Below, piece after piece: positions 17,184-36,813 of a stretch of DNA of 64,000 nt. Source of the stretch: an uncultured Chthonomonas sp. (GTDB lineage Bacteria; Armatimonadota; Chthonomonadetes; Chthonomonadales; CAJBBX01); contig CAJBBX010000086.1 of assembly GCA_903951425.1 (NCBI GenBank), forward strand, positions 1 to 64,000. The letters are read 5' to 3'. How positions within the stretch are numbered: position 1 is the stretch's first letter; each line of letters starts with the position of its first letter. Under the pieces are notes generated by a model. The model saw only the letters and a program-made list of their open reading frames with translations. It searched no databases and was not told the DNA's origin. The translations under genes were made by a program, and so were the position numbers.

Positions 17184-19154
17184 ATGGCACCTCCACCCTT
17201 GGGTCGTCCGCTTGGCCGTGTGACCGTTCGCGGCGTCGTGCTGGGGACGGCGCTGGCGGCGGCCCATACCGCGTGGGTGGTGTATGACGAGACGGCCTGG
17301 GGGCATCTGGGCACGTCGATCACGGGCGCCTCGCTGCTGGCCAGCGCCGTGGCCCTCCTCTTCGTGCTGCTGGCCGCCAACGGCCTCCTCAGCGGGCGCA
17401 TGGAGCGGTTCAGGCTCAAGCCGCCTGAGATGATGGTCATCTTTACCATGGTGACCGTCTCGGCCATGGTGGCGGGGTTCGACCTGCTACAGAACCTGAT
17501 GCCCACGCTGCTCATGCCGTTCTGGTACGCGACCCCGGCCAACCGGTGGGAGCGGTTCCTGCCCAACATCGCGCCCTGGCTCGCGCCGCGCGATCCGGCG
17601 GTGGTGCGCGCCTTCTTCCTCGGCGGCGGTAGCTTCTTCGAGGCCCGCGTGTGGCATGCGTGGCTGGTACCGCTGCTGGCCTGGGGCGGGTTCCTCTTCG
17701 TGCTATGCGGGGTCATGTTCTGCCTCAACGTGCTCATGCGCCGGCAGTGGGTGGACCGGGAGCGCTTGCCCTTCCCGATCCTCGAGGTCCCGCTGACCAT
17801 GGTCTCGTCCGGCACCCTGGGCGGGCTCTTCTCGCGGCGGACGCTACTCCTCGGGTTCGCGATACCGGTGGCCGTGGAGTCGCTGAACGTGCTCAGCGGC
17901 ATGTTCCCGTCGCTTCCCGGCGTGCAGCTCAACCTCTGGAACCTGGGCCACTTCATCACCGAGCCGCCCTACAACGCCGCCAACCCGCTCTACATGATGT
18001 GGCAGCCCTTCGGCATCGGTCTGGCGTTCCTGATCCCGCTGGATGTCTCCTTCTCCTGCTGGTTCTTCTACCTGGCGCGCAAGGCCTTCGAGGTGCTCTG
18101 GGTGTCGCAGGGCTGGGGCGCGGCGGGCGGGGCGGGCGCGGCGTTCCCCTACACCCGGGAGCTGGCCTACGGAGCGTGGCTGGGCCTGTTCGTGACCCTC
18201 ATGTGGAGCGCCAGGAGCCACCTGCGGTCGCTGCTCGGGCTCCTCATGCCGCGGCGTGGGAGGGCTCCGGAGGACGCCGGCGAGGCGATCTCCTATCGGC
18301 TTGCGGCGGCGGGCGTGCTGGCGGGATACGCAGCGCTGGTCGGCTTCGCGGTGGCGGCGGGGATGTCGGCGCTCCTGGCGACCGTCTACTTCATGCTCTT
18401 TCTGCTGGCCACCGTGGCCATGACGCGGGTCTATGCCCAGGTGGGGATGCCCGTCCTGGAGCTCTACTTCTTCAACACCGAGGCGGCCATCGTGGCGGCT
18501 GCCGGAAGCCGGAGCCTCACCGCGGGCGACCAGGTGGTCATGACCAACTTCTTCTGGTTCAACCGCTGCTACCGCCAGCACCCGATGGCGCACCAGCTAG
18601 AGGCGATGCGCTTCTCCGACCTCACGGGCACGAGCCGCCGCTGGACCGCCGGGGTGTTGCCGCTGGCGGCGCTGATCGGGATCGTGGTGGGGTTCCTGGC
18701 CACGCTGGAGATCTACTACACCCGCGGGGCGGGGACGGCCAAGGTGCTGGGCTACCAGCTCGGCGTGGGCTGGGAGGCCTACGGCCGGCTGCAGGGCTGG
18801 GCCGACGCGCCGCAGGCGCCGCAAGCCAAGGCCTACATCGCCGCCGGAAGCTCCTTCGCCGTGGTGGGCGGCCTGGCGCTGCTGCGCGGCGCGATCCTGG
18901 GCTGCCCCCTGCACCCCATCGGCTACGCGCTGGCGGTCTCCTACGCCATGGAGTACTTCTGGGCCCCGTTCTTCGCCACGTGGCTCCTTAAGCTGCTGAT
19001 CGTCCGCTACGGCGGGCTCAAGGCCTACCGAAACGCCATGCCCTTCTTCCTCGGCTTCGTCATCGGCGACTACGTGACGGTCATCTTCTGGGGGCTCGTG
19101 GCCAGCGCCTTCGGCCTAAAGGGGATTTCACCGTACCTGTTCCACAAGTGGTAG
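17184..19154 (+). CDS. DUF6785/DUF6784-type multi-spanning membrane protein
   Basis: 656 residues with about 12-14 hydrophobic helices. Family-like stretches include LSGRMERFRLKPPEMMVIFT, the loop with ATPANRWERFLPNIAPWL, RRQWVDRERLPFPILEVPL, NLGHFITEPPYNAANPLYM, LELYFFNTEAAIVAAAGSR and a terminal MPFFLGFVIGDYVTVIFWG. The overall plan recalls oligopeptide-transporter-like permeases; the substrate is unknown. The start at 17184 follows TACGAT (17172-17177) closely, so the leader may be very short. The gene is a single unit diverging from the sugar operon. Confidence 0.75.
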   Translation: MAPPPLGRPLGRVTVRGVVLGTALAAAHTAWVVYDETAWGHLGTSITGASLLASAVALLFVLLAANGLLSGRMERFRLKPPEMMVIFTMVTVSAMVAGFDLLQNLMPTLLMPFWYATPANRWERFLPNIAPWLAPRDPAVVRAFFLGGGSFFEARVWHAWLVPLLAWGGFLFVLCGVMFCLNVLMRRQWVDRERLPFPILEVPLTMVSSGTLGGLFSRRTLLLGFAIPVAVESLNVLSGMFPSLPGVQLNLWNLGHFITEPPYNAANPLYMMWQPFGIGLAFLIPLDVSFSCWFFYLARKAFEVLWVSQGWGAAGGAGAAFPYTRELAYGAWLGLFVTLMWSARSHLRSLLGLLMPRRGRAPEDAGEAISYRLAAAGVLAGYAALVGFAVAAGMSALLATVYFMLFLLATVAMTRVYAQVGMPVLELYFFNTEAAIVAAAGSRSLTAGDQVVMTNFFWFNRCYRQHPMAHQLEAMRFSDLTGTSRRWTAGVLPLAALIGIVVGFLATLEIYYTRGAGTAKVLGYQLGVGWEAYGRLQGWADAPQAPQAKAYIAAGSSFAVVGGLALLRGAILGCPLHPIGYALAVSYAMEYFWAPFFATWLLKLLIVRYGGLKAYRNAMPFFLGFVIGDYVTVIFWGLVASAFGLKGISPYLFHKW

Positions 19155-19320
19155 GGTCGGCGGGGGTGTAGGGCGGCGGCAATGGGACGGATGTGCCGCT
19201 GGGATTGGATTGACGGTACCGAGGTCGCTTCTGGGTGGCGCCTGCTGGGATTCGCGTTATGATTGGGCGGTTGGATCGCTTTGCGCTCTCTTTGCGACGG
19301 AACCGGCGCGGAGTTTGCCC

Positions 19321-21978
19321 ATGCATGCGCCTGCTACGGCGCCCGTTACACTGGTCTACGCGGACCTTGCCGGCAGTACCGTCGGCTGGCGCGAACATGG
19401 CCCGACCTTCGGGGCCTCCATCGCAGCCATGCACGCGGTGGCCCGTGAACGCGCCGAGGCCCGGGGCGGCGACTATGTGAAGAGCACGGGCGACGGCTTC
19501 ATTCTGGCTTTCCCGTCGCCCCTCTTCGCGGTGATCTGTGCGGCGGAGATTCAGCGGGAGATCCTCTGCGGAGAGGCCTTCGCGGACCGGCCGCGCCTGG
19601 CCTTGCGCGTGGGCGTCCACACCGATACGCCGACGGTGGTCGACGGCGAGTATACGGGCTTCGCCATGTGGCAGGCCCAGCGCGTGATGGATGCCGCCCA
19701 GGGCGCGCAGATCCTCATGTCGGAGACCACCTACATCCTGGCGAAGCGCGACGTCTCCGCCGCGCACGACTGCTCCTGCGAGCCCCTGGGGAGCTTCCAG
19801 CTGCGGGATCTGCTGGAGCCGATCGCCCTCTACCGCGTCATTGTGCCGGGCGTGCCGCTGAGCGAGTTGCCGCCGCGCGTCATGCCGGCCGGATCGCACA
19901 ACCTGCCGGAGGAGGAGAGGCCTTTCATCGGGCGCGCCCGGGAGGTGGCCGAGGTGGCCGGGCTGTTGGCGCACGAGGGCACGCGGCTCGTGACCATCAC
20001 GGGGATCGGCGGGATCGGGAAGTCGCGGCTGGCCAAGCAGGCTGCCGCCCAGCGGATCGACGACTATCCCGACGGCGTCTGGCTAGCCGACATGGAGGAC
20101 GCCCGTTCGCGCGAGGACGCTGTGGCGGCAATTCGCGCGGCCCTGCCGGTGGAGACGGGGCCTGAGTTCCCCGGCTCCGGTCGCAGCGGCGCCCTCGGTT
20201 CCGCCCGCCTGCTGCTGATCCTGGACTGCTTCGAGCGGCTCGAGCCCCACGCAGCCCTGGTGGACGACCTGTTGCGCGCAGCGCCGAGCATCCGCTGCCT
20301 GGTCACGAGCCGGTGCGTCCTGGGGTTGCCCCGCGAGTTCGAGTATCCGCTCCTGCCCATGGACGCGGGCGGCGCCGACGATGCCGACAAGCTGCCCGAA
20401 CCGGTTGACGCCATGGCTCTCTTCTCCGAGGCCGCTTCCCATGTGGTCCATGACTTCGCGGTCACTCCGGCCAACAGGCCCATGGTTGCCGAGCTCTGCC
20501 GCGAGCTGGAGGGCATCCCGCTCTGCCTCGTCCTCGCCGCGGGCCGCCTGCGGCAGATGAGCTTGCCGGAACTGACTGCCGAGGTGCGCACGCACCGCCT
20601 GGCGGTGTTGAAGCGCCGCATGCCGGGCGTCGACCGCCACGGGGCCATGCGCGATGTGGTTGCCGCCTCCATCGATATGCTGCAGCCCGAGACCCGCCAC
20701 CTGCTGGAGCAGGTGAGCCTCTTCCAGGGCGGCTTCTTCCAGGACGACGCCGCGGCCGTCTGCACGTTCGACGACGGCATCGACCTGCTCGACGGGCTCG
20801 CGGCGCTGCGGGAGAACTCGCTGCTCCACGCTCAGATCGTGGATGAGCGGACTAGGTACCGCCTTCTGGACACCGTTCGCGAGTACGTTACGGGGACGGT
20901 GGCTCCGGGCGACGAGGCCATCGAGGCGAGCCGCCGGCGCCATGCCGAGCGCTACGCCGCGCTGGCCGCGTCCATCGGCACGTCGATGAACGGCGGGCGC
21001 TGGGCCGAGGCGATGGCCCATGTGCGCCGCGAGAGCGCGAACCTCCGTGCGGCCGTGGGCTATGCCGCCGGTGTGGGGTCATTGGAGCTGCTGATCGCCT
21101 TCGGCGGCACGCTGGCCCGGATCTACTTCGAGGCGGGCCTCTGGGATGATTTCGGCCGGCTCGTGGAGGCCGCCGCCCCTGCTGCCGAGGCGCTCGGCCG
21201 CGAGGATGTGGCCAACCTGCTCCTGGGTCTGCGTGGGGCGCGTGCGGCGCGGCAGGGCGATATCCCGGCCGCCCGCGCCCTCTGGGAGCAGCGCGTGGAG
21301 CGTGCCCTGGTCGCCGGCGACGTGCCGGCCGCGGCCGACAACCTCTTCGACCTGGCCAACCTGGCGCGGGAGGCGGGCGACTACACCGGCGCCAGGAAGC
21401 TCCTCCGGCGGGCCATGGGGATCGCACGTGACTACGGCGACAGCGGCCTCCTCGGGACCGCGTACGCCGTCCTGGCCGCCATGAAGCTGGCCGAGGGGGC
21501 CCCGCAGGAGGCCCGACGGGCGGCCGACCGCGCCGTGCGGGCCGCACAGGTGAGCGGCGACGTGGAGGCGCGGCTGTTCATCCAGACCAGCGTCGGCCGG
21601 GTCTATCTCGAGACCGGCGACGAGCGCCGGGCCGAGGCTGCACTGCACGAGGCCATCGGGCTCGCCATGGACGGCGACCGCGACCTGGCCCTTATTGGCG
21701 CGCTGATCGACGTGGGCCGCCTCCACGAGCGCGGGGGGCGCCCCGAGCGGGCTGCCATGGCGTATGCCGCCGCGGCGAGCATCCGGCCGGGCCTGCCTTG
21801 CGCACGCACTGCGCTGGCGCACAGCGCACTGGACCGCTTCAGGCGGTCCCTGACGGACCCGCGGATCCTCTCAGTCCTCGATGAGGCGCGGGAGGCGCCG
21901 TGGCAGCAGTCTGTGGCATCTCTGCTAGCCGACCCTGGCGGGGACCTCCGGCCGGGACCAATCAGAGGGAGAGTGTAA
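19321..21978 (+). CDS. Class III nucleotidyl cyclase domain - STAND ATPase - TPR signalling protein
   Basis: 885 residues. Residues 8-185 are a class III cyclase domain. The two metal-binding Asp are in VYADLAGST (Asp15) and KSTGDGF (Asp58, with Lys54). The usual VNRAAR block reads AMWQAQR, so the transition-state Asn is replaced by Trp and catalysis may be weak or lost. About residues 200-520 form an AfsR/NB-ARC-like NTPase with P-loop ITGIGGIGKSRLAKQ and LLLILDCFERLEPH. The last 350 residues are TPR-like helical repeats. Such proteins are cytosolic sensors or regulators. The stop TAA overlaps the ATG of the next gene, which points to a dedicated partner. Confidence 0.82.
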   Translation: MHAPATAPVTLVYADLAGSTVGWREHGPTFGASIAAMHAVARERAEARGGDYVKSTGDGFILAFPSPLFAVICAAEIQREILCGEAFADRPRLALRVGVHTDTPTVVDGEYTGFAMWQAQRVMDAAQGAQILMSETTYILAKRDVSAAHDCSCEPLGSFQLRDLLEPIALYRVIVPGVPLSELPPRVMPAGSHNLPEEERPFIGRAREVAEVAGLLAHEGTRLVTITGIGGIGKSRLAKQAAAQRIDDYPDGVWLADMEDARSREDAVAAIRAALPVETGPEFPGSGRSGALGSARLLLILDCFERLEPHAALVDDLLRAAPSIRCLVTSRCVLGLPREFEYPLLPMDAGGADDADKLPEPVDAMALFSEAASHVVHDFAVTPANRPMVAELCRELEGIPLCLVLAAGRLRQMSLPELTAEVRTHRLAVLKRRMPGVDRHGAMRDVVAASIDMLQPETRHLLEQVSLFQGGFFQDDAAAVCTFDDGIDLLDGLAALRENSLLHAQIVDERTRYRLLDTVREYVTGTVAPGDEAIEASRRRHAERYAALAASIGTSMNGGRWAEAMAHVRRESANLRAAVGYAAGVGSLELLIAFGGTLARIYFEAGLWDDFGRLVEAAAPAAEALGREDVANLLLGLRGARAARQGDIPAARALWEQRVERALVAGDVPAAADNLFDLANLAREAGDYTGARKLLRRAMGIARDYGDSGLLGTAYAVLAAMKLAEGAPQEARRAADRAVRAAQVSGDVEARLFIQTSVGRVYLETGDERRAEAALHEAIGLAMDGDRDLALIGALIDVGRLHERGGRPERAAMAYAAAASIRPGLPCARTALAHSALDRFRRSLTDPRILSVLDEAREAPWQQSVASLLADPGGDLRPGPIRGRV

Positions 21979-22721
21979 TGAGATCCACGTACATCGGGTG
22001 GGACCCGCGCGACCAGGCCTGGTCGCCCGGGGATCTGATCTGGACGCACAATGGCGGTTGGGACGACGTGGACGGCCTGCTGACGGACCCCGTCGCGTGG
22101 CTCGCGAACATCAAGTTCGAGGTTGGGCCGCGGGCCATGCTGGCGCCGAAGCCGCCCACGATCATCGCGCGGTACCGCGTCCCGACGGAGGCGCCGGGTC
22201 CCGAGGAGGGACCGGTGACGATCGCCGGGGCCAACATGTCGGACATCATCATGCTGCGCGTGACGCCTGAGCCGCCGAGCACCGAGGGTCCGGTAGCCAT
22301 TCCGGGGAGCGAGGAAGCGGATTGGCGCATGAGCGCCACCTACTGCGCGTCGGACGGTGGAGCGTACGTCCACTTCCCGGTGCGGCGCACCGACCCCACC
22401 GCCATCGCGCCGTTCCTGCGGGAGATGCTGAGGAGCCCGCAGGGGCTGATCGACCAGGTCAACGGCTGCCGGAACCTGTACGAGTACGATGGAGATGCCG
22501 GCGAGCCGGTGCCGATCTCAAGCGATGGAGTGCAGCGGGAGCAGTACTGCATCGAGTACTCGGACCTGGCAGTCGTGATCCAGGCGGTGTGCGTTCCTGC
22601 GGGCGGCTACCCGGCCTGCTGCAAGGTGTCGGCATCGCCCTGCACCGATGGCGTCTGCTATCCGGGATGCACCAAGGTGGTGAACGGCATCCTCTACCTC
22701 TGTTACAACTACCTGCCGTAG
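21978..22721 (+). CDS. Unknown Cys-rich protein coupled to the cyclase/STAND gene
   Basis: 247 residues with no recognised family. Its ATG overlaps the cyclase gene stop (TAATG), with GAGGGAGAG as ribosome binding site. There is no signal peptide. The N-terminal half is Pro/Gly-rich (ARYRVPTEAPGPEEGPV). The middle is globular (YVHFPVRRTDPTAIAPFLRE). The last 60 residues hold eight Cys (KVSASPCTDGVCYPGCTKV and neighbours), possibly a metal site or a disulfide knot. Function unknown; strict coupling suggests the cyclase/STAND protein senses or controls it. Confidence 0.8.
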   Translation: MRSTYIGWDPRDQAWSPGDLIWTHNGGWDDVDGLLTDPVAWLANIKFEVGPRAMLAPKPPTIIARYRVPTEAPGPEEGPVTIAGANMSDIIMLRVTPEPPSTEGPVAIPGSEEADWRMSATYCASDGGAYVHFPVRRTDPTAIAPFLREMLRSPQGLIDQVNGCRNLYEYDGDAGEPVPISSDGVQREQYCIEYSDLAVVIQAVCVPAGGYPACCKVSASPCTDGVCYPGCTKVVNGILYLCYNYLP

Positions 22722-22736
22722 ACGGGCAGTAGGCTC

Positions 22737-22768
22737 GCGATGGGTGGCGAGATGCCGCCACCCATCGC
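22737..22768 (+). terminator. Strong hairpin after the cyclase operon
   Basis: GCGATGGGTGGCG and CGCCACCCATCGC form a perfect 13-bp stem with a 6-base loop, 16 bases after the stop at 22721. There is no T-run, which is common for terminators in high-GC bacteria. Confidence 0.6.
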
Positions 22769-22851
22769 CGCCTTGCGCCTGCTTGCGACGAGGGCCCGGA
22801 GCCGGTACCATAGCAGCACGCCCGCGCACGGGCTGGATCCGGGAGGCCGCT

Positions 22852-24144
22852 ATGGTTCCGCTCATTGTCATCGCCGTTCCGTTGGCCGCGCTGCTTGCGG
22901 TGCAGGCCGCGCCCACGCGGGAGCAGGTGATCGATACCGTCCTGAAGCCCTACACGGGCCCGACCACGCGAGGCGTGGATCGTTCGACGCTCACCGGCAA
23001 GGTGATGTGCGGCTACCAGGGCTGGTTCACCGCGCCGGGCGACGGCGCGGGCCGGGGCTGGTTCCACTGGGGACGCGGCGACATGCGGCCCGGCTCGGTC
23101 ACCGTGGACCTCTGGCCCGACGTGAGGGAACTGGACGCCGACGAGCGCGTCGATACCGCCTTCCGCCATGCCGACGGGAGCGTGGCGCAGGTCTTCAGCT
23201 CCTTCAACCGCAAGACCGTGCTGCGGCATATGCGCTGGATGCGCGACTACGGCATCGACGGTTCCTTCGTGCAGCGTTTCGCCGGAGAGACCATGCACCC
23301 GGCGGGGCTGCGGCAATCGACCACCGTGCTGGGCTATTGCCGTGAGGGGTCGAACCTCTACGGCCGCACCTACGCGGTGATGTACGATCTCTCGGGCCTG
23401 GGCGCGGGGCAGATGGAGCGCGTGAAGGAGGACTGGCGGCTCCTCTTCGAGCGGATGAAGATCACCAAGGACCCGGCCTACCTGCACCACAAGGGGAAGC
23501 CGGTGGTGGCCGTCTGGGGCGTCGGGTTCAGCGACAACCGCAAGTACACGGTGGCCGAGTGCCGCTCGCTGGTGGAGTTCCTGAAAAACGACCCGCAGGT
23601 GGGCGGCTGCACGGTGATGCTGGGTGTGCCGACCTACTGGCGGACGCTGAACCGCGACAGCCTGGCGGACCCGGCGCTGCACGAGGTGATCGCGCTGGCG
23701 GACATCGTCAGCCCCTGGATGGTGGGGCGGTACGGGACGGTGGAGGACGCGGCCCGCATCGGCCGCGAGGTCTTCGCGCCGGACCTGCAGTGGTGCCGAG
23801 GCAAGGGGCTGGACTACCTGCCGGTGGTCTTCCCCGGCTTCAGCTGGCACAACATGATCCCGAGCAGCAAGCAGGATCAGATCCCCCGGCGCGGCGGCAA
23901 GTTCCTCTGGGCGCAGTACGTGGCGGCGAAGAAGGCCGGGGCAACGATGGTCTACCAGGCGATGTTCGACGAGGTGGACGAGGGGACGGCCATCTTCAAG
24001 TGCACCAACGACCCGCCGGTGGGCGAGTCGACCTTCGTGACCTATGAGGGCCTGCCGTCGGACCACTACCTCTGGCTGGTGGGGCAGGCTGCGAAGATGG
24101 TGCGCGGCACGGCTCCGTTGAAGGATGAGATGCCGAAGCGGTAA
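22852..24144 (+). CDS. Secreted GH71/99-like glycoside hydrolase
   Basis: 430 residues. The start at 22852 follows GGGAGG and gives a signal peptide (VPLIVIAVPLAALLAVQAA). The barrel of the xylosidase/GH99-like group shows in KVMCGYQGWFTAPGD, GWFHWGRG, YGIDGSFVQRFAGET, YAVMYDLSGLG, KPVVAVWGVGF and YLPVVFPGFSWHN. A late acidic motif AMFDEVDEGTAIFK is typical of the catalytic end. The substrate is unknown. The gene is a single unit with a possible TACCAT -10 box near 22806. Confidence 0.8.
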   Translation: MVPLIVIAVPLAALLAVQAAPTREQVIDTVLKPYTGPTTRGVDRSTLTGKVMCGYQGWFTAPGDGAGRGWFHWGRGDMRPGSVTVDLWPDVRELDADERVDTAFRHADGSVAQVFSSFNRKTVLRHMRWMRDYGIDGSFVQRFAGETMHPAGLRQSTTVLGYCREGSNLYGRTYAVMYDLSGLGAGQMERVKEDWRLLFERMKITKDPAYLHHKGKPVVAVWGVGFSDNRKYTVAECRSLVEFLKNDPQVGGCTVMLGVPTYWRTLNRDSLADPALHEVIALADIVSPWMVGRYGTVEDAARIGREVFAPDLQWCRGKGLDYLPVVFPGFSWHNMIPSSKQDQIPRRGGKFLWAQYVAAKKAGATMVYQAMFDEVDEGTAIFKCTNDPPVGESTFVTYEGLPSDHYLWLVGQAAKMVRGTAPLKDEMPKR

Positions 24145-24176: not shown

Positions 24177-24206
24177 TTGCGGCGAGCGTTGGTTGAGGTG
24201 TACAAT
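24177..24206 (+). promoter_or_regulatory. Candidate promoter of the PIN/Phd pair
   Basis: TTGCGG (24177-24182), an 18-base spacer and TACAAT (24201-24206), about 20 bases before the ATG at 24227. Confidence 0.45.
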
Positions 24207-24226
24207 TGTCATCGAGGTGTGGCCCC

Positions 24227-24619
24227 ATGCAGATTGTCACCGACACGTCCGTCTTGCTTGCTGTCATTCTAGGTGAGCCCGAGCGCGACAGGCTGGTAGT
24301 AGCGACCGCCGGGCACGAGCTCGTTGGCCCCGCGTCCATCCCATGGGAGATGGGCAACGCGTTCAGTGCCATGCTGAAGCGCCGTCGGATCAGCCTGGCT
24401 ACAGCGCTTGCCGGGGCCGACACCATGGGCCGCATACCAGTGCGGTTGCTCCATGTCAATGTACGAGCAGCGCTGATCGTCGCTGCAGACCACGGGCTCT
24501 ATGCCTACGATGCCTACTTCGTGGAGTGTGCACTTATGCTCGGAGCGCCGCTCATTACGCTCGATCGCCGCCTGCAAGAGGCCGCCCAGCGTGCCGGCGC
24601 CCAGATCGTCGAGGTCTAG
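24227..24619 (+). CDS. VapC-like PIN-domain toxin
   Basis: 130 residues. The acidic set of a PIN ribonuclease is complete: VTDTSVLLAV (Asp6 region), PWEMGNAF (Glu), YAYDAYFVECA (Asp and Glu) and ITLDRRLQ (Asp). The fold usually cleaves tRNA or other RNA when released from its antitoxin. One base separates its stop from the Phd-like antitoxin gene, so the toxin is first in this operon, the reverse of the common order. The ATG at 24227 is preferred because the PIN motif begins six residues later. Confidence 0.85.
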   Translation: MQIVTDTSVLLAVILGEPERDRLVVATAGHELVGPASIPWEMGNAFSAMLKRRRISLATALAGADTMGRIPVRLLHVNVRAALIVAADHGLYAYDAYFVECALMLGAPLITLDRRLQEAAQRAGAQIVEV

Positions 24620-24620
24620 T

Positions 24621-24863
24621 ATGGAGGTCTACACCTACTCAGACGCGCGTCAACATCTGGCCGCCCTGCTTGATTCGGCCACGGTGACGGGCAAGGTGAT
24701 CATCAGGCGGCGGGATGGGACAACCTACGCGGTAGTGCCGGAGAGCGCTCCGGCGAGCCCGTTGGACGTGCCGCCCATCATGGCCCCGGTCGGCGTCGCG
24801 GAGATCATCAGTGTCGTGCGCGAGTGCCGCGAACGGGATGGAGCGCCACAGCCGCAGGGCTAG
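24621..24863 (+). CDS. Phd/YefM-like antitoxin
   Basis: 80 residues. The N-terminus VYTYSDARQHLAALLDSA and GKVIIRRRDGTTYAVVPES follow the prevent-host-death fold, a dimer that binds operator DNA. The C-terminal tail (VGVAEIISVVRECRER) would clamp the toxin. It is coupled to the VapC-like gene just upstream. Mixed pairing of a Phd-type antitoxin with a PIN toxin is known. Confidence 0.8.
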   Translation: MEVYTYSDARQHLAALLDSATVTGKVIIRRRDGTTYAVVPESAPASPLDVPPIMAPVGVAEIISVVRECRERDGAPQPQG

Positions 24864-24900: not shown

Positions 24901-25962
24901 TCATTCATTCAGCCGGAACGTGAAGCCACCCGCGTCCACGCCGACCTCGGCGCAGAGCCACCGAAGGCGGGTGAGGAGGCCGGCTGCCGACCCATGTGTC
25001 TCCAGGTAGAACGCGGTCTCTCCGACTGCAACGCTGTGCGGGGAGTGCATGGGCTTGCCGGGCGCCGCCTCCGGCGTCCGATTGGTGTAGCGATGGCCCG
25101 ATCGCCCAACCAATGGGACGGGTACCGCGCACGGGGCGTGGGCGACCATCCACTCGACGCCGACTAGGAGCGCCTGCCGCCATGCCTTCACAGGGGACAC
25201 GCTCCCGTCAGGACAGCGGACCTCAACAATCGAGGCATTAGTGGGGTTCAGGGTCTCATCACTGAGGGTTACCCAGCCGGTCGGTTGCAGCGGGGGCTCC
25301 GCCTTGACCGTGACGGCCACAGGCGCCGCCGATGGCTGTCCGCTGCGGGTCATCGGCGAGATGATGGCGCCGAAGACCTCCGCCTGCGTCACCGCCGTGA
25401 GGCCGGGCTGCTTCCGGGCAAGGCTCCAGATCTGCTTCACCAACGCCGAACCAGGGCTTGCCAGTTGCTCCCGCACGAAGCGTGAGAGGGTCGCTCGGCG
25501 CGCCGCCTCCGCGAGCCCGCCGCCCGTCACGCTTTCGCGCGTCAGGGCCGCGAGAAGCGCCTCCATCTCTTCCGGCTGGTCGCGGTGTGCGCGCATTGCC
25601 AGCTTGTTCGGAGGCTCCCCCGGCAGATCGAGGTCATACAGCCGCCACTCGATGCCGTTGGTGAGCGCGACCCAGCGTTGCCCGCTCTGGTGGGCGTACG
25701 GCGTCGCCTGCCGGACATGCTGCTCGGTGAGAGCGATGCTGTAGCTCTTGGCCTCCAGGAACCATGTATGCCCGGTGTTCGGCAGGATGGTGTAGTCCGG
25801 CTTCGTTCCAGCCTTGTCGGTCTCCTCCGGCACCCATTCCGTGCGCCCATAGCCGAGCACCTCAGTAAGGACGGGATCAATGATCCACCGACACGTAGCA
25901 GCTTCATTTGGTGGCGTGCCGGCCATCTCGAGGATCGCGAGGTACTGCGTGTACAGGCTCAT
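24901..25962 (-). CDS. HsdR N-terminal-like (type IV restriction-like) nuclease
   Basis: 353 residues from the ATG at 25962, preceded by AGGGGGA. The N-terminal 130 residues carry a PD-(D/E)XK nuclease like the HsdR N-terminal domain: LTEVLGYG, the metal Asp in TKPDYTILP and the ExK pair in FLEAKSYSIAL, followed by AVRPQA-like and LTNGIEWRLYDLD strands. The C-terminal part (WRQALLVGVEWMVAHA and on) is not recognised. No helicase or methylase accompanies it, so it is a stand-alone restriction-like enzyme. It converges on the PIN/Phd pair. Defence role is inferred. Confidence 0.75.
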   Translation of the reverse strand: MSLYTQYLAILEMAGTPPNEAATCRWIIDPVLTEVLGYGRTEWVPEETDKAGTKPDYTILPNTGHTWFLEAKSYSIALTEQHVRQATPYAHQSGQRWVALTNGIEWRLYDLDLPGEPPNKLAMRAHRDQPEEMEALLAALTRESVTGGGLAEAARRATLSRFVREQLASPGSALVKQIWSLARKQPGLTAVTQAEVFGAIISPMTRSGQPSAAPVAVTVKAEPPLQPTGWVTLSDETLNPTNASIVEVRCPDGSVSPVKAWRQALLVGVEWMVAHAPCAVPVPLVGRSGHRYTNRTPEAAPGKPMHSPHSVAVGETAFYLETHGSAAGLLTRLRWLCAEVGVDAGGFTFRLNE

Positions 25963-26135
25963 CAACAGGTCCCCCTTCACAGTTGGCAGCATATTCGGTC
26001 TGCTCTATCCTGTATCCTCCTTGGGCGCGGTGGCGCAGGCTGGCGCTGACGCCAACGGACGGCACAGGGTCACCCGTTGACGACTAGCCGGCACGGCATT
26101 GACGCTCCATGGGGCCCGTACAATGCCGGTGTTTC

Positions 26136-34678: not shown

Positions 34679-35944
34679 ATGGTGAATCGGCGGTCAGCCA
34701 TCAAGGCCATGGTGGCGGCGGCCCTGCCCGCGATGGCGGGCTTCGGCGCTCGTCGCGACGGCAGGATCGTGCTCCGGTTCTGGAACGGGTTCACCGGACC
34801 CGACGGAACCACGACACTGGCCCTCGTGCGGCAGTTCAACCGGGAGAACCCGGACCTCGAACTCCGGATGCAGCGCATCGAGTGGCCCGTCTACTACCGG
34901 AAGCTCTACGTTGCCGGCCTCGGCGGTAGGGCGCCGGAGGTCTTTGTGCTCCACACCGACTCGCTTCGCCGGTTCGCCGAGGCAGGAATGGTGCGGCCCA
35001 TTGACGATCTCGTCGCGTCCGGTTTCCCGGTCTCTGATATCGACCGCAACGTGTGGCAGGCCGCAGGCCTGGGCGGCAAGCAGTACGGGCTGCCCATCGA
35101 CGTCCATCCGCTCTGCCTCTACTACAACCGCCGCCTGCTGCTCGAGGCCGGCGTCGATCGACCTCCCACCGACTTGGCCGGGTTCATGGCCGTCGCGCGT
35201 CGCGTCACGCGGCCCTCGCGGGATCCCGAGCAGCTGCGATGGGGCTTCAGCATCTCCAACCCGTCGCCCACGGCCTACTCCATCATGCGGCAGTTCGGGG
35301 GTCGGGTCTTCACCCCGGACGCCTCACACTGTACGCTCGCTTCGCCGGCCAATGTGGCGGCCCTGCAGCTTCTGGCGGACCTGGTCCACAGGGAGCGCGT
35401 CGCCGCTCCGTTCATGGACTTCGACCCCTGGGTGGGGTTCAGGCAGGGCAGGGTCGGCATGACCTGGAACGGCATCTACATGCTCCCTGACCTGCAGAAG
35501 CAGCGGGACCTCGACTTCGCCGCCGCGCCGGTGCCGCGCCTGGGCAAGCAGCCCGCCGTCTGGGGGAACACGCACAACTTCTGCCTGAAGGCGGGCCTGG
35601 AGCCGCGTGTGGCCGACGCCGCCTGGCGGTTTCCCCGGTTCTACTCCGACCACGCCCTGGACTGGGCCCAGGCCGGCCAGGTGCCCGCCCGCAGAAGCCT
35701 GCGGGCCTCGCGGCGGTTCGCCGGCATGGCAGCGCAACGCCACTGCGCAGCCGAGATCCCCTATATCGCCTACATGCCCCAGATACCGTTCCTCTTCGAG
35801 TTCCAAACGGAGTTCGACCTGGCGGTGGAGCGCGCCCTACGAGGCACCGCGAGCGCCGCCGAGGCCCTCAGGGCAGCGGAGGACAACGTCAACAAGATAA
35901 TCGCGCGCCGCATCGCTGAGGGCGCGGACGGGCCGGGCCGATGA
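34679..35944 (+). CDS. ABC transporter sugar-binding protein
   Basis: 421 residues of the extracellular solute-binding family 1 type. The N-terminus NRRSAIKAMVAAALPAMAG is a twin-arginine-like signal. Family features: IVLRFWNGFTGPDG, LVRQFNRENPDLEL, APEVFVLHTDSLRRFAEAG, GLPIDVHPLCLYYNRRLLLE and MTWNGIYMLPDL. It captures an oligosaccharide or sugar outside the membrane and delivers it to the two permeases encoded next. The stop overlaps the next ATG (ATGA). No ATPase gene follows, so a shared MsmK-like ATPase elsewhere is expected. Confidence 0.92.
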   Translation: MVNRRSAIKAMVAAALPAMAGFGARRDGRIVLRFWNGFTGPDGTTTLALVRQFNRENPDLELRMQRIEWPVYYRKLYVAGLGGRAPEVFVLHTDSLRRFAEAGMVRPIDDLVASGFPVSDIDRNVWQAAGLGGKQYGLPIDVHPLCLYYNRRLLLEAGVDRPPTDLAGFMAVARRVTRPSRDPEQLRWGFSISNPSPTAYSIMRQFGGRVFTPDASHCTLASPANVAALQLLADLVHRERVAAPFMDFDPWVGFRQGRVGMTWNGIYMLPDLQKQRDLDFAAAPVPRLGKQPAVWGNTHNFCLKAGLEPRVADAAWRFPRFYSDHALDWAQAGQVPARRSLRASRRFAGMAAQRHCAAEIPYIAYMPQIPFLFEFQTEFDLAVERALRGTASAAEALRAAEDNVNKIIARRIAEGADGPGR

Positions 35945-36813
35945 CCGGGCGGCGCCGACGCGACTGGCTGGGCTACCTGTTCGTAGCGCCTTACCTGCTT
36001 CTGTTCGGGGCGTTCCTGGTGGGGCCCCTGCTCTATGGCCTGCGCCTCAGCCTGTTCCGCTGGGAGATGCTCAGCCCGGCGCCACCGGCGTACATCGGCC
36101 TGGGCAACTACCGCGAGGCGCTGGCCGACCCCTACTTCCGGCAGGCGTTCTGGGCCACTCTCCGCATGGTGGTCTGGGTCACGCCTTGTACGGTGGGGCT
36201 CGCGCTGGCCGTAGCTCTGGGGCTGCACGCGCTTGCAGGGCGTCGGCAGGGGCTCTATCGGGCCGCCTACTTCCTGCCGACCATGCTCACAATCAGCGTG
36301 GTGGGCATTCTCTGGCGCTGGTTCTACCACCCCGACATGGGGCTCTTCAACGCCGGTCTGCAGGCCGCGTTCGGCCTGAAGGCGCCGTGGTTCTCCGACG
36401 CCGGCTGGGCCACGGCCGCCGTCGTCATCATGACGGTCTGGTGGACCATGGGCGGTCCGATGGTTATCCTGCTGGCCGGTCTCCAGGGCGTCCCTGTGCA
36501 GTACGACGAAGCCGCCAGGCTGGACGGCGCGGGGCCGTGGCAGCGCCTCTGGCACGTGACTCTCCCCATACTGCGGCCCGTGTTGCTGTTCGCTGTTACG
36601 CTCAATACGATCGGCGCCTTCCAGATCTTCGGCCAGACCTACCTGGTCACGCGAGGTGGTCCGGAGGGCGCCACCCGGACGCTCGTGCATCTCATCTACG
36701 ACACGGCCTTCCAGCACTACCGCCTTGGCTACGCCGCGGCGATCAGTTGGCTCATGTTCCTGCTGATTGGCGCCTTCGCCCTCCTGCAGTTCAGGCTGCT
36801 GCGCGACCGATGA
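35941..36813 (+). CDS. Sugar ABC transporter permease (MalF/UgpA type)
   Basis: 290 residues, six membrane helices. The EAA loop that docks the ATPase is YDEAARLDGAGPWQRLWHVT. The start WLGYLFVAPYLLLFGAFLVG and SVVGILWRWFYHPDMGLFN are characteristic of MalF-like permeases. It overlaps genes on both sides by four bases. Confidence 0.92.
   Translation: MTGRRRRDWLGYLFVAPYLLLFGAFLVGPLLYGLRLSLFRWEMLSPAPPAYIGLGNYREALADPYFRQAFWATLRMVVWVTPCTVGLALAVALGLHALAGRRQGLYRAAYFLPTMLTISVVGILWRWFYHPDMGLFNAGLQAAFGLKAPWFSDAGWATAAVVIMTVWWTMGGPMVILLAGLQGVPVQYDEAARLDGAGPWQRLWHVTLPILRPVLLFAVTLNTIGAFQIFGQTYLVTRGGPEGATRTLVHLIYDTAFQHYRLGYAAAISWLMFLLIGAFALLQFRLLRDR

Follow-up and report, generated by a model that had tools for sequence, protein, structure and literature searches.

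Which role does a second, separately encoded protein have beside a switch that is usually complete in one chain? The question is raised by a pair of overlapping genes in a 64,000-nucleotide stretch of DNA from an uncultured Chthonomonas sp. (contig CAJBBX010000086.1, positions 1 to 64,000), which we call the window. The first gene encodes a large protein of the signal transduction ATPases with numerous domains (STAND) class, and the second encodes a small cysteine-rich protein, here called the partner. STAND proteins usually hold switch, sensor, and output in a single chain, whereas here a second, lineage-specific protein would be made in step with the first. The pair is therefore a tractable case for how new partners join an old switch. 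We favor, at a probability of roughly 40%, the explanation that the partner is a protein ligand or keeper, specific to the genus, by which the STAND switch is set in the way MalY acts on MalT.

The gene pair is retained in three species of one genus

To delimit the pair, we searched for the partner across the order, the phylum, and the GTDB contigs. A tblastn search found it in 3 of 31 genomes of the order, all of its own genus, and a profile search recovered a full-length partner in 3 of 291 genomes of the phylum Armatimonadota. The scan of GTDB contigs returned two loci, and all searches together yielded only three members of the genus. These three species, each represented by a metagenome assembly, are the whole sample that carries the pair.

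In all three species, the partner adjoins this STAND gene and overlaps it, by a TAATG junction in the window and in the related locus L007, and by a 4-base ATGA overlap in the related locus L006, where the STAND stop codon is shifted. The sequence around the junction is nearly identical in the three species. Bacterial operons often contain gene overlaps of one or four bases; what stands out is therefore not the overlap as such but its retention. A preliminary description, made from the window sequence alone, had reported genes of 885 and 247 residues joined by TAATG, which we confirmed, with one base shared. It had also proposed to check whether the partner always follows a STAND/cyclase gene; this held in all three species, and no intact solitary copy of the partner was found among the 291 phylum genomes, although a single genus makes this a weak test.

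The partner and the STAND orthologue have the same distribution, both being present in the three genomes of the genus. Identity to the window proteins was 80% and 78% for the partner and 91% and 94% for the STAND protein, and the nearest STAND relatives outside the genus had about 30 to 34% identity among the matches listed. At this place, 19184 to 22774 alone could be aligned in all three species; this block comprises the leader, both genes, and the hairpin that follows them. Upstream, the gene encoding a DUF6785 protein had no match in the 52.9-kb stretch of the L006 contig that was compared; 3′ of the pair, L006 has a gene for an S41 peptidase/tetratricopeptide repeat (TPR) protein and then the shared GH99-like gene. 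On this comparative evidence, the pair is real.

The L006 locus also contains a decayed second copy of the 3′ end of the partner gene (L006:9114-9249; codons 207 to 247 and some bases beyond). It is 82% identical over 138 bases to the L006 partner gene itself, and the S41 peptidase/TPR gene lies between the two.

The partner gene is genuine and its product belongs to no known family

Searches of Pfam, NCBIfam, PADLOC, and PHROGs gave no match for the partner, in line with the preliminary description, which had placed it in no known family. It was not found in plasmids or viral contigs (IMG/VR), and the five chains matched among PDB sequences (E values of 0.49 to 1.3) were taken as chance. These searches used the single sequence and a 3-row profile, and a phage collection and metagenome contigs lay outside their scope. 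Four weak profile matches in other genomes of the phylum (E values of 0.0057 to 0.029 per genome, over 39 to 89 residues) are expected by chance, since 291 genomes were searched. As judged from these searches, the partner is new, but restricted to one genus in what was searched.

We ruled out a spurious gene on three grounds, namely, the GC content by codon position (0.63/0.51/0.88), the substitutions by codon position, which fall mostly on the third (26:23:86 and 35:22:80), and the ratio of nonsynonymous to synonymous substitution rates (dN/dS). This ratio was 0.19 to 0.22 for the partner and 0.14 to 0.16 for the STAND gene, indicating that both genes are under purifying selection. The partner tail (residues 201 to 247) is its fastest part, with a dN/dS of 0.29 to 0.41. 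The C-terminal cluster of eight Cys described earlier is indeed present in the last 57 residues, at positions 191 to 242, but only five of the eight are conserved: Cys191, 214, 215, 222, and 227, together with Cys123, are invariant in the three species, and Cys164, 205, 231, and 242 are variable. No signal peptide was seen in the partner by eye. The AlphaFold model of the partner, made from three rows, was unusable (predicted local distance difference test [pLDDT] score of 31.5), and therefore no interface can be proposed from it. As no fold is known for the partner, a structure of it would be of value in its own right.

The large protein is a STAND switch with a cyclase-fold N terminus

The large protein is of a known kind, combining cyclase, STAND, and TPR regions, and the earlier assignment as a signaling ATPase with a cyclase-type N terminus and TPRs was upheld by Pfam, the family alignment, and a fold model. 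Pfam TPR_12 scored 41.3 bits against a cutoff of 30.1; the matches to AAA_16, NB-ARC, and Guanylate_cyc all lay under their own cutoffs (for Guanylate_cyc, 20.0 bits against 21.9). An AlphaFold model built from a 37-row alignment of family members (pLDDT of 82.1, predicted template modeling score of 0.66) supports the cyclase, nucleotide-binding, and TPR regions, with the C-terminal TPR helices spanning residues 561 to 869. G231, G233, and K234 of the Walker A motif and G398 and P400 of the GxP motif are invariant in 37 of 37 aligned family members. The best PDB match of the model in Foldseek was 6mfv (PH0952, a TPR-sensor STAND protein; E value of 5.0e-12), followed by cyclases and Apaf-1. 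Superposition with VIA-align gave a Z score of 26.6 and a root mean square deviation (rmsd) of 6.1 over 425 for Apaf-1 (3shf), 22.5 and 4.5 over 355 for MalT (8bob_C), 20.9 and 11.6 over 505 for PH0952, and 24.2 and 1.8 over 162 for the cyclase 4wp9_A.

The first part of the large protein matched trypanosomal GRESAG cyclases and Ma1120 in a PDB sequence search. It shares with Ma1120 and other class III cyclases the fold and Asp15, Lys54, Asp58, and Arg121, which include the two metal-binding Asp residues, and the Arg121 column is Arg in 37 of 37 domains. An Asn and an Arg form the transition-state pair of class III nucleotide cyclases. The usual Asn column, however, holds Trp117 in all three orthologues, where most relatives have Asn (27 of the other 34, with His in three, Gln in two, Ser in one, and Ala in one), which makes a cAMP output doubtful. 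Loss of activity does not follow from Trp117, as Ma1120 carries Ala in this column of the PDB sequence alignment. The term cyclase is to be used with caution, as the fold is present but the usual Asn is not, and the pair lets one ask whether cyclase-fold domains in such proteins still signal.

No DNA-binding domain was found in the large protein among the 17 Pfam families listed up to an E value of 1, and the AfsR model scored 26.5 bits against a cutoff of 1430. Mycobacterial cyclase/NB-ARC/LuxR proteins such as Rv0386 carry cyclase and NB-ARC regions in one chain, but their LuxR-type domain was not found in the large protein by Pfam. The large protein resembles MalT and PH0952 in the order of its parts, in which an arm and TPR helices come after a nucleotide-binding switch. 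Both of these differ in being (predicted) transcription factors with DNA-binding effector domains, according to passages of PMC6468293, whereas the large protein has a cyclase-fold N terminus and no Pfam DNA-binding domain.

Relatives of the large protein have diverse neighbors

Seven further STAND relatives (E values up to 1e-5) are encoded in the genome of the window; for one of them, the cyclase part aligns as well. Relatives at E values up to 1e-20 occur in 27 of the 31 genomes of the order. In a tree of 43 relatives (midpoint rooted, with the composition of the orthologues flagged by the program), the three orthologues cluster together, and their stem measures 2.53 changes per column. By alignment and tree, this is an ordinary family with one genus-specific, strongly diverged member, and it is that member which has the genus-specific partner.

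We surveyed the neighbors of 43 loci, 33 from family members and 10 from the own genus, taking, with the longest possible start, the two longest open reading frames (ORFs) of 60 codons or more in the vicinity of the stop codon (at L056, only 96 downstream bases were available). A general rule by which a small coupled gene comes after a cyclase-STAND gene failed in this survey, the neighbors being diverse. Because only the two longest ORFs per locus were displayed, small coupled genes may still exist elsewhere. Overlaps from a longest-start ATG were seen at L055 (4 bases), L073 (38 bases), and L068 (70 bases), the ORFs of the latter two having further Met codons downstream, and at L051, L052, L063, L079, L081, and L039 an overlap resulted solely from a TTG start. 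In the own genome, a 112-codon ATG ORF overlaps the paralogue L046 by one base and a 154-codon ORF starts 15 bases on. Behind the further cyclase-STAND gene of this genome, the relative that also aligns in its cyclase part, a gene for an AMP-binding enzyme lies 38 bp 3′ without overlap.

The one clear ATGA-type overlap among the 43 loci is in the same order, at L055:1651-5045 (minus strand, genome G004), where a full cyclase/NB-ARC/TPR gene overlaps a gene for an MscS channel (PF00924, 2.4e-17) by 4 bases, possibly forming a STAND-gated channel pair. L055 shares the three regions and the overlap with the locus studied here but differs in its downstream gene, and the orthologue group of the window sits on a very long branch. 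The preliminary description regarded a STAND gene with an adjacent effector gene as a frequent design in defense and programmed responses; among the relatives, only this one other tight ATG overlap with a downstream gene was seen.

Some further features of the relatives were recorded. Five loci (L059, L062, L064, L069, and L072) have His or Gln in the Asn column and form a supported group in the tree; L018 in the Asn-column alignment is the same place as L072. In four of these five, a same-strand ORF that looks exported by eye lies within 260 bp 3′. The gene downstream of L070 encodes a PEP-CTERM motif over the Pfam cutoff.

A proposed role for the partner in setting the switch

In STAND proteins, a closed ADP form gives way to an oligomer with ATP, in which the effector domain at one end is activated, as PMC6468293 and PMC4381067 describe, and MalY binds the STAND protein MalT and blocks its oligomerization, according to PMC10427625. 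By analogy, the large protein would be a STAND ATPase with its nucleotide-binding switch held closed with ADP, and its C-terminal TPR superhelix would read an inducer. The cyclase fold lies in the effector position, so that oligomerization would bring the N-terminal cyclase-fold output domains together; class III cyclases act as dimers. The partner would be made from the same message by coupled translation, bind the STAND protein directly, and set its trigger, either as a keeper that holds the switch off until the signal arrives, as MalY does with MalT, or as the protein part of the signal. A subunit is what best accounts for a coupled second protein, and MalY offers the clearest precedent for such a protein setting a TPR-sensor STAND, the mechanism proposed here. 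No sequence relation of the partner to any family was found. We infer the single mRNA, the physical binding, and the direction of the effect.

Several lines of evidence support this role, namely, the overlap that is kept in all three species despite the shifted stop codon, the block of leader, both genes, and hairpin as the only one common to the three species, the identical distribution of the two genes, the purifying selection on both, and the matches of the STAND/TPR fold model to PH0952 (6mfv) and to MalT in a structure from the MalT-MalY study (8bob_C). Other points weigh against it. That the partner binds the STAND protein is a step we infer, and its model, worthless at a pLDDT of 31.5, gives no interface. 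MalY and the further inhibitors of MalT are not known to be encoded by genes coupled in this way. The relatives of the large protein manage without such a partner, with diverse neighbors among the 43 loci, and only three genomes carry the pair. In addition, an effector or a merely coexpressed protein would look alike by sequence.

The main rival, which was the idea of the preliminary description, is that the partner is an effector, i.e., that the Cys-rich protein is activated or released by the triggered STAND protein and then has its effect on the cell. With Trp in the Asn column, the cyclase output may be weakened, which would leave room for another one, and the MscS channel gene at L055, in the same family, is an effector-like coupled partner, although it is a single case. 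Conflict systems are among the places where cyclase domains described as inactive in catalysis are found, as stated in a passage of PMC7159879. However, no catalytic or toxin family was recognized in the partner by Pfam, NCBIfam, PADLOC, or PHROGs, and five conserved Cys in a tail are not enough to identify an effector. The STAND gene, moreover, is kept vertically at 91 to 94% identity, unlike the typical turnover of defense genes. We regard an effector role as rather unlikely, if the best placed of the alternatives. The suggestion in the preliminary description of a defense or programmed response found no support: neither protein matched any PADLOC family, including those of the antiphage STAND systems Avs and bNACHT (the library dates from 2023, so defense may have been missed), the STAND gene diverges like its neighbors, and no positive evidence for defense was found in these sequences.

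It is somewhat less probable that the partner is only coexpressed, as an accessory or housekeeping protein of the genus that has the message in common with the STAND protein but no part in its mechanism. Coupled operon neighbors need not interact, the other cyclase-STAND gene of the same genome is followed by the nonoverlapping AMP-binding enzyme gene, and phyla with little sampling contain many orphan genes whose role is unknown. Mere coexpression sits poorly with an overlap that persisted in three species through rearrangements of the flanking DNA, and with a partner distribution that equals that of the STAND orthologue. No paper on this pair was seen in the literature listings searched, which does not prove that none exists.

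The partner shows mosaic divergence between species

Between the window and L007, the synonymous divergence (dS) was 0.56 for the partner, compared with 0.20 for the STAND gene, 0.16 for the GH99-like gene, and 0.14 for the DUF6785 gene. In 80-codon windows, dS was about 0.1 where the STAND gene ends and over partner codons 1 to 35, 0.5 to 0.95 in the remainder of the partner, and 0.14 where the next gene begins. The level of the partner was not reached by any 247-codon block of the STAND and GH99-like genes, nor by any of 5,000 codon shuffles in each of the three species pairs. The sites shared by window and L007, window and L006, and L006 and L007 numbered 21:2:2 in partner bases 1 to 135 and 49:70:46 in bases 136 to 741, against 215:91:68 in the STAND gene (chi-square P of 1.8e-8 for bases 136 to 741 versus the STAND gene, with sites taken as independent). 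The mosaic part of the partner looks like a replacement by a divergent allele.

As a control, 22 window genes were tried, of which 13 were matched in genome G002 and 10 in genome G003. The partner ranked first of 10 against G003 (0.61; next, 0.585) but fourth of 13 against G002, where a solute-binding protein gene, the first gene from 34679 on, reached 0.67, the gene after it reached 0.58, and an HsdR_N-like gene reached 0.57. The stretches of raised dS against G002 (0.56 to 0.67) are 22113 to 22718, 24901 to 25992, and 34679 to 36813, and the other nine of the 13 genes had values of 0.14 to 0.32; the raised values may be signs of allele replacement between species. Because the restriction-like gene and the two genes from 34679 on have equal dS, mosaic divergence is not specific to the partner. 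For the same reason, i.e., its frequency in the neighborhood, we did not accept recombination as proof of diversifying selection.

A more speculative explanation, which we hold to be improbable, is that a conflict system is gated by the STAND protein and has in the partner its exchangeable part for recognition or killing. In such a system, codons 1 to 45 and the coupled switch would be conserved while the rest would be swapped between species by recombination, leaving old 3′ ends behind as orphan pieces, as the decayed L006 tail would be. If true, the pair would be a new kind of two-gene module resembling nucleotide-binding leucine-rich repeat receptors (NLR-like) in an understudied phylum. 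Very improbable, finally, is a precursor whose variable Cys-rich tail becomes a modified peptide (a ribosomally synthesized and posttranslationally modified peptide [RiPP]), with the STAND protein as cluster regulator: the fast-evolving tail would fit, as would the weak match in NCBIfam between the STAND protein and HaaT (a TPR protein from clusters for cyclophane RiPPs), but this match (58.4 bits against a cutoff of 1125; E value of 3.8e-16) lies in the TPR part and far below the cutoff, 247 residues are long for a precursor, and no modifying enzyme was seen among the proteins of the 17- to 28-kb region scanned, the rest of the genome not having been searched for one.

Layout of the unit and neighboring genes

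The features of the unit are collected in Table 1. The AGGGAGAG motif ends five bases 5′ of the shared ATG and is, in our reading, a candidate Shine-Dalgarno-like site. The 23-bp leader block has a single copy in its own genome with up to 3 mismatches allowed and is a candidate promoter or operator; a sigma-70 scan gave no site.

TABLE 1 Coordinates of features of the STAND-partner unit in the window
Feature	Position	Strand	Remarks
23-bp leader block	19245..19267	+	Within the best-conserved stretch of the three aligned species' leaders, 5′ of the STAND gene
Large STAND gene	19321..21978	+	885 aa from ATG at 19321; cyclase-homology / STAND (NB-ARC) / TPR
Class III nucleotide-cyclase fold	19321..19851	+	Residues about 1-177; 4wp9_A match
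Nucleotide-binding oligomerization region (predicted)	19891..20910	+	Residues about 191-530; Pfam, alignment, fold matches to Apaf-1 and MalT
Walker A GIGGIGKS	20002..20025	+	P-loop intact
Arm and TPR helices	20914..21927	+	Residues about 532-869; Pfam, model, structure matches
AGGGAGAG, Shine-Dalgarno-like (candidate)	21966..21973	+	Same letters in the junctions of all three species
TAATG junction	21976..21980	+	One base common to STAND stop and partner start
Partner gene	21978..22721	+	247 aa, without known family
Partner codons 1-45	21978..22112	+	Same protein sequence in window and L007; site patterns agree with the species grouping of the STAND gene
Partner codons 46-247	22113..22718	+	Mosaic part; STAND-gene grouping lost
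Cys-rich tail	22548..22703	+	Cys191 to Cys242; eight Cys, five invariant in three species
Hairpin 3′ of partner	22737..22768	+	Perfect 13-bp inverted repeat, 22737-22749/22756-22768, 6-nt loop

The preliminary description had the unit end in a 13-bp hairpin. The repeat is there and perfect, but no T-run follows the stem and a terminator scan gave 0 sites in 19140 to 22900, so that a terminator role is plausible and no more. The core sequence of the hairpin is kept in both related loci, with a perfect stem of 9 bp in L006 and a different pairing in L007 (13 bp, 85%). A repeated element was rejected, as the core pattern had 28 matches in the window against 30.4 expected by chance.

Farther downstream, at 24206 to 24863, the window contains a PIN-domain gene, which had no match in the G003 stretch compared. 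It overlaps an ORF with a weak Phd/YefM match (27.4 bits against a cutoff of 29.8), and the two are likely to form a toxin-antitoxin pair.

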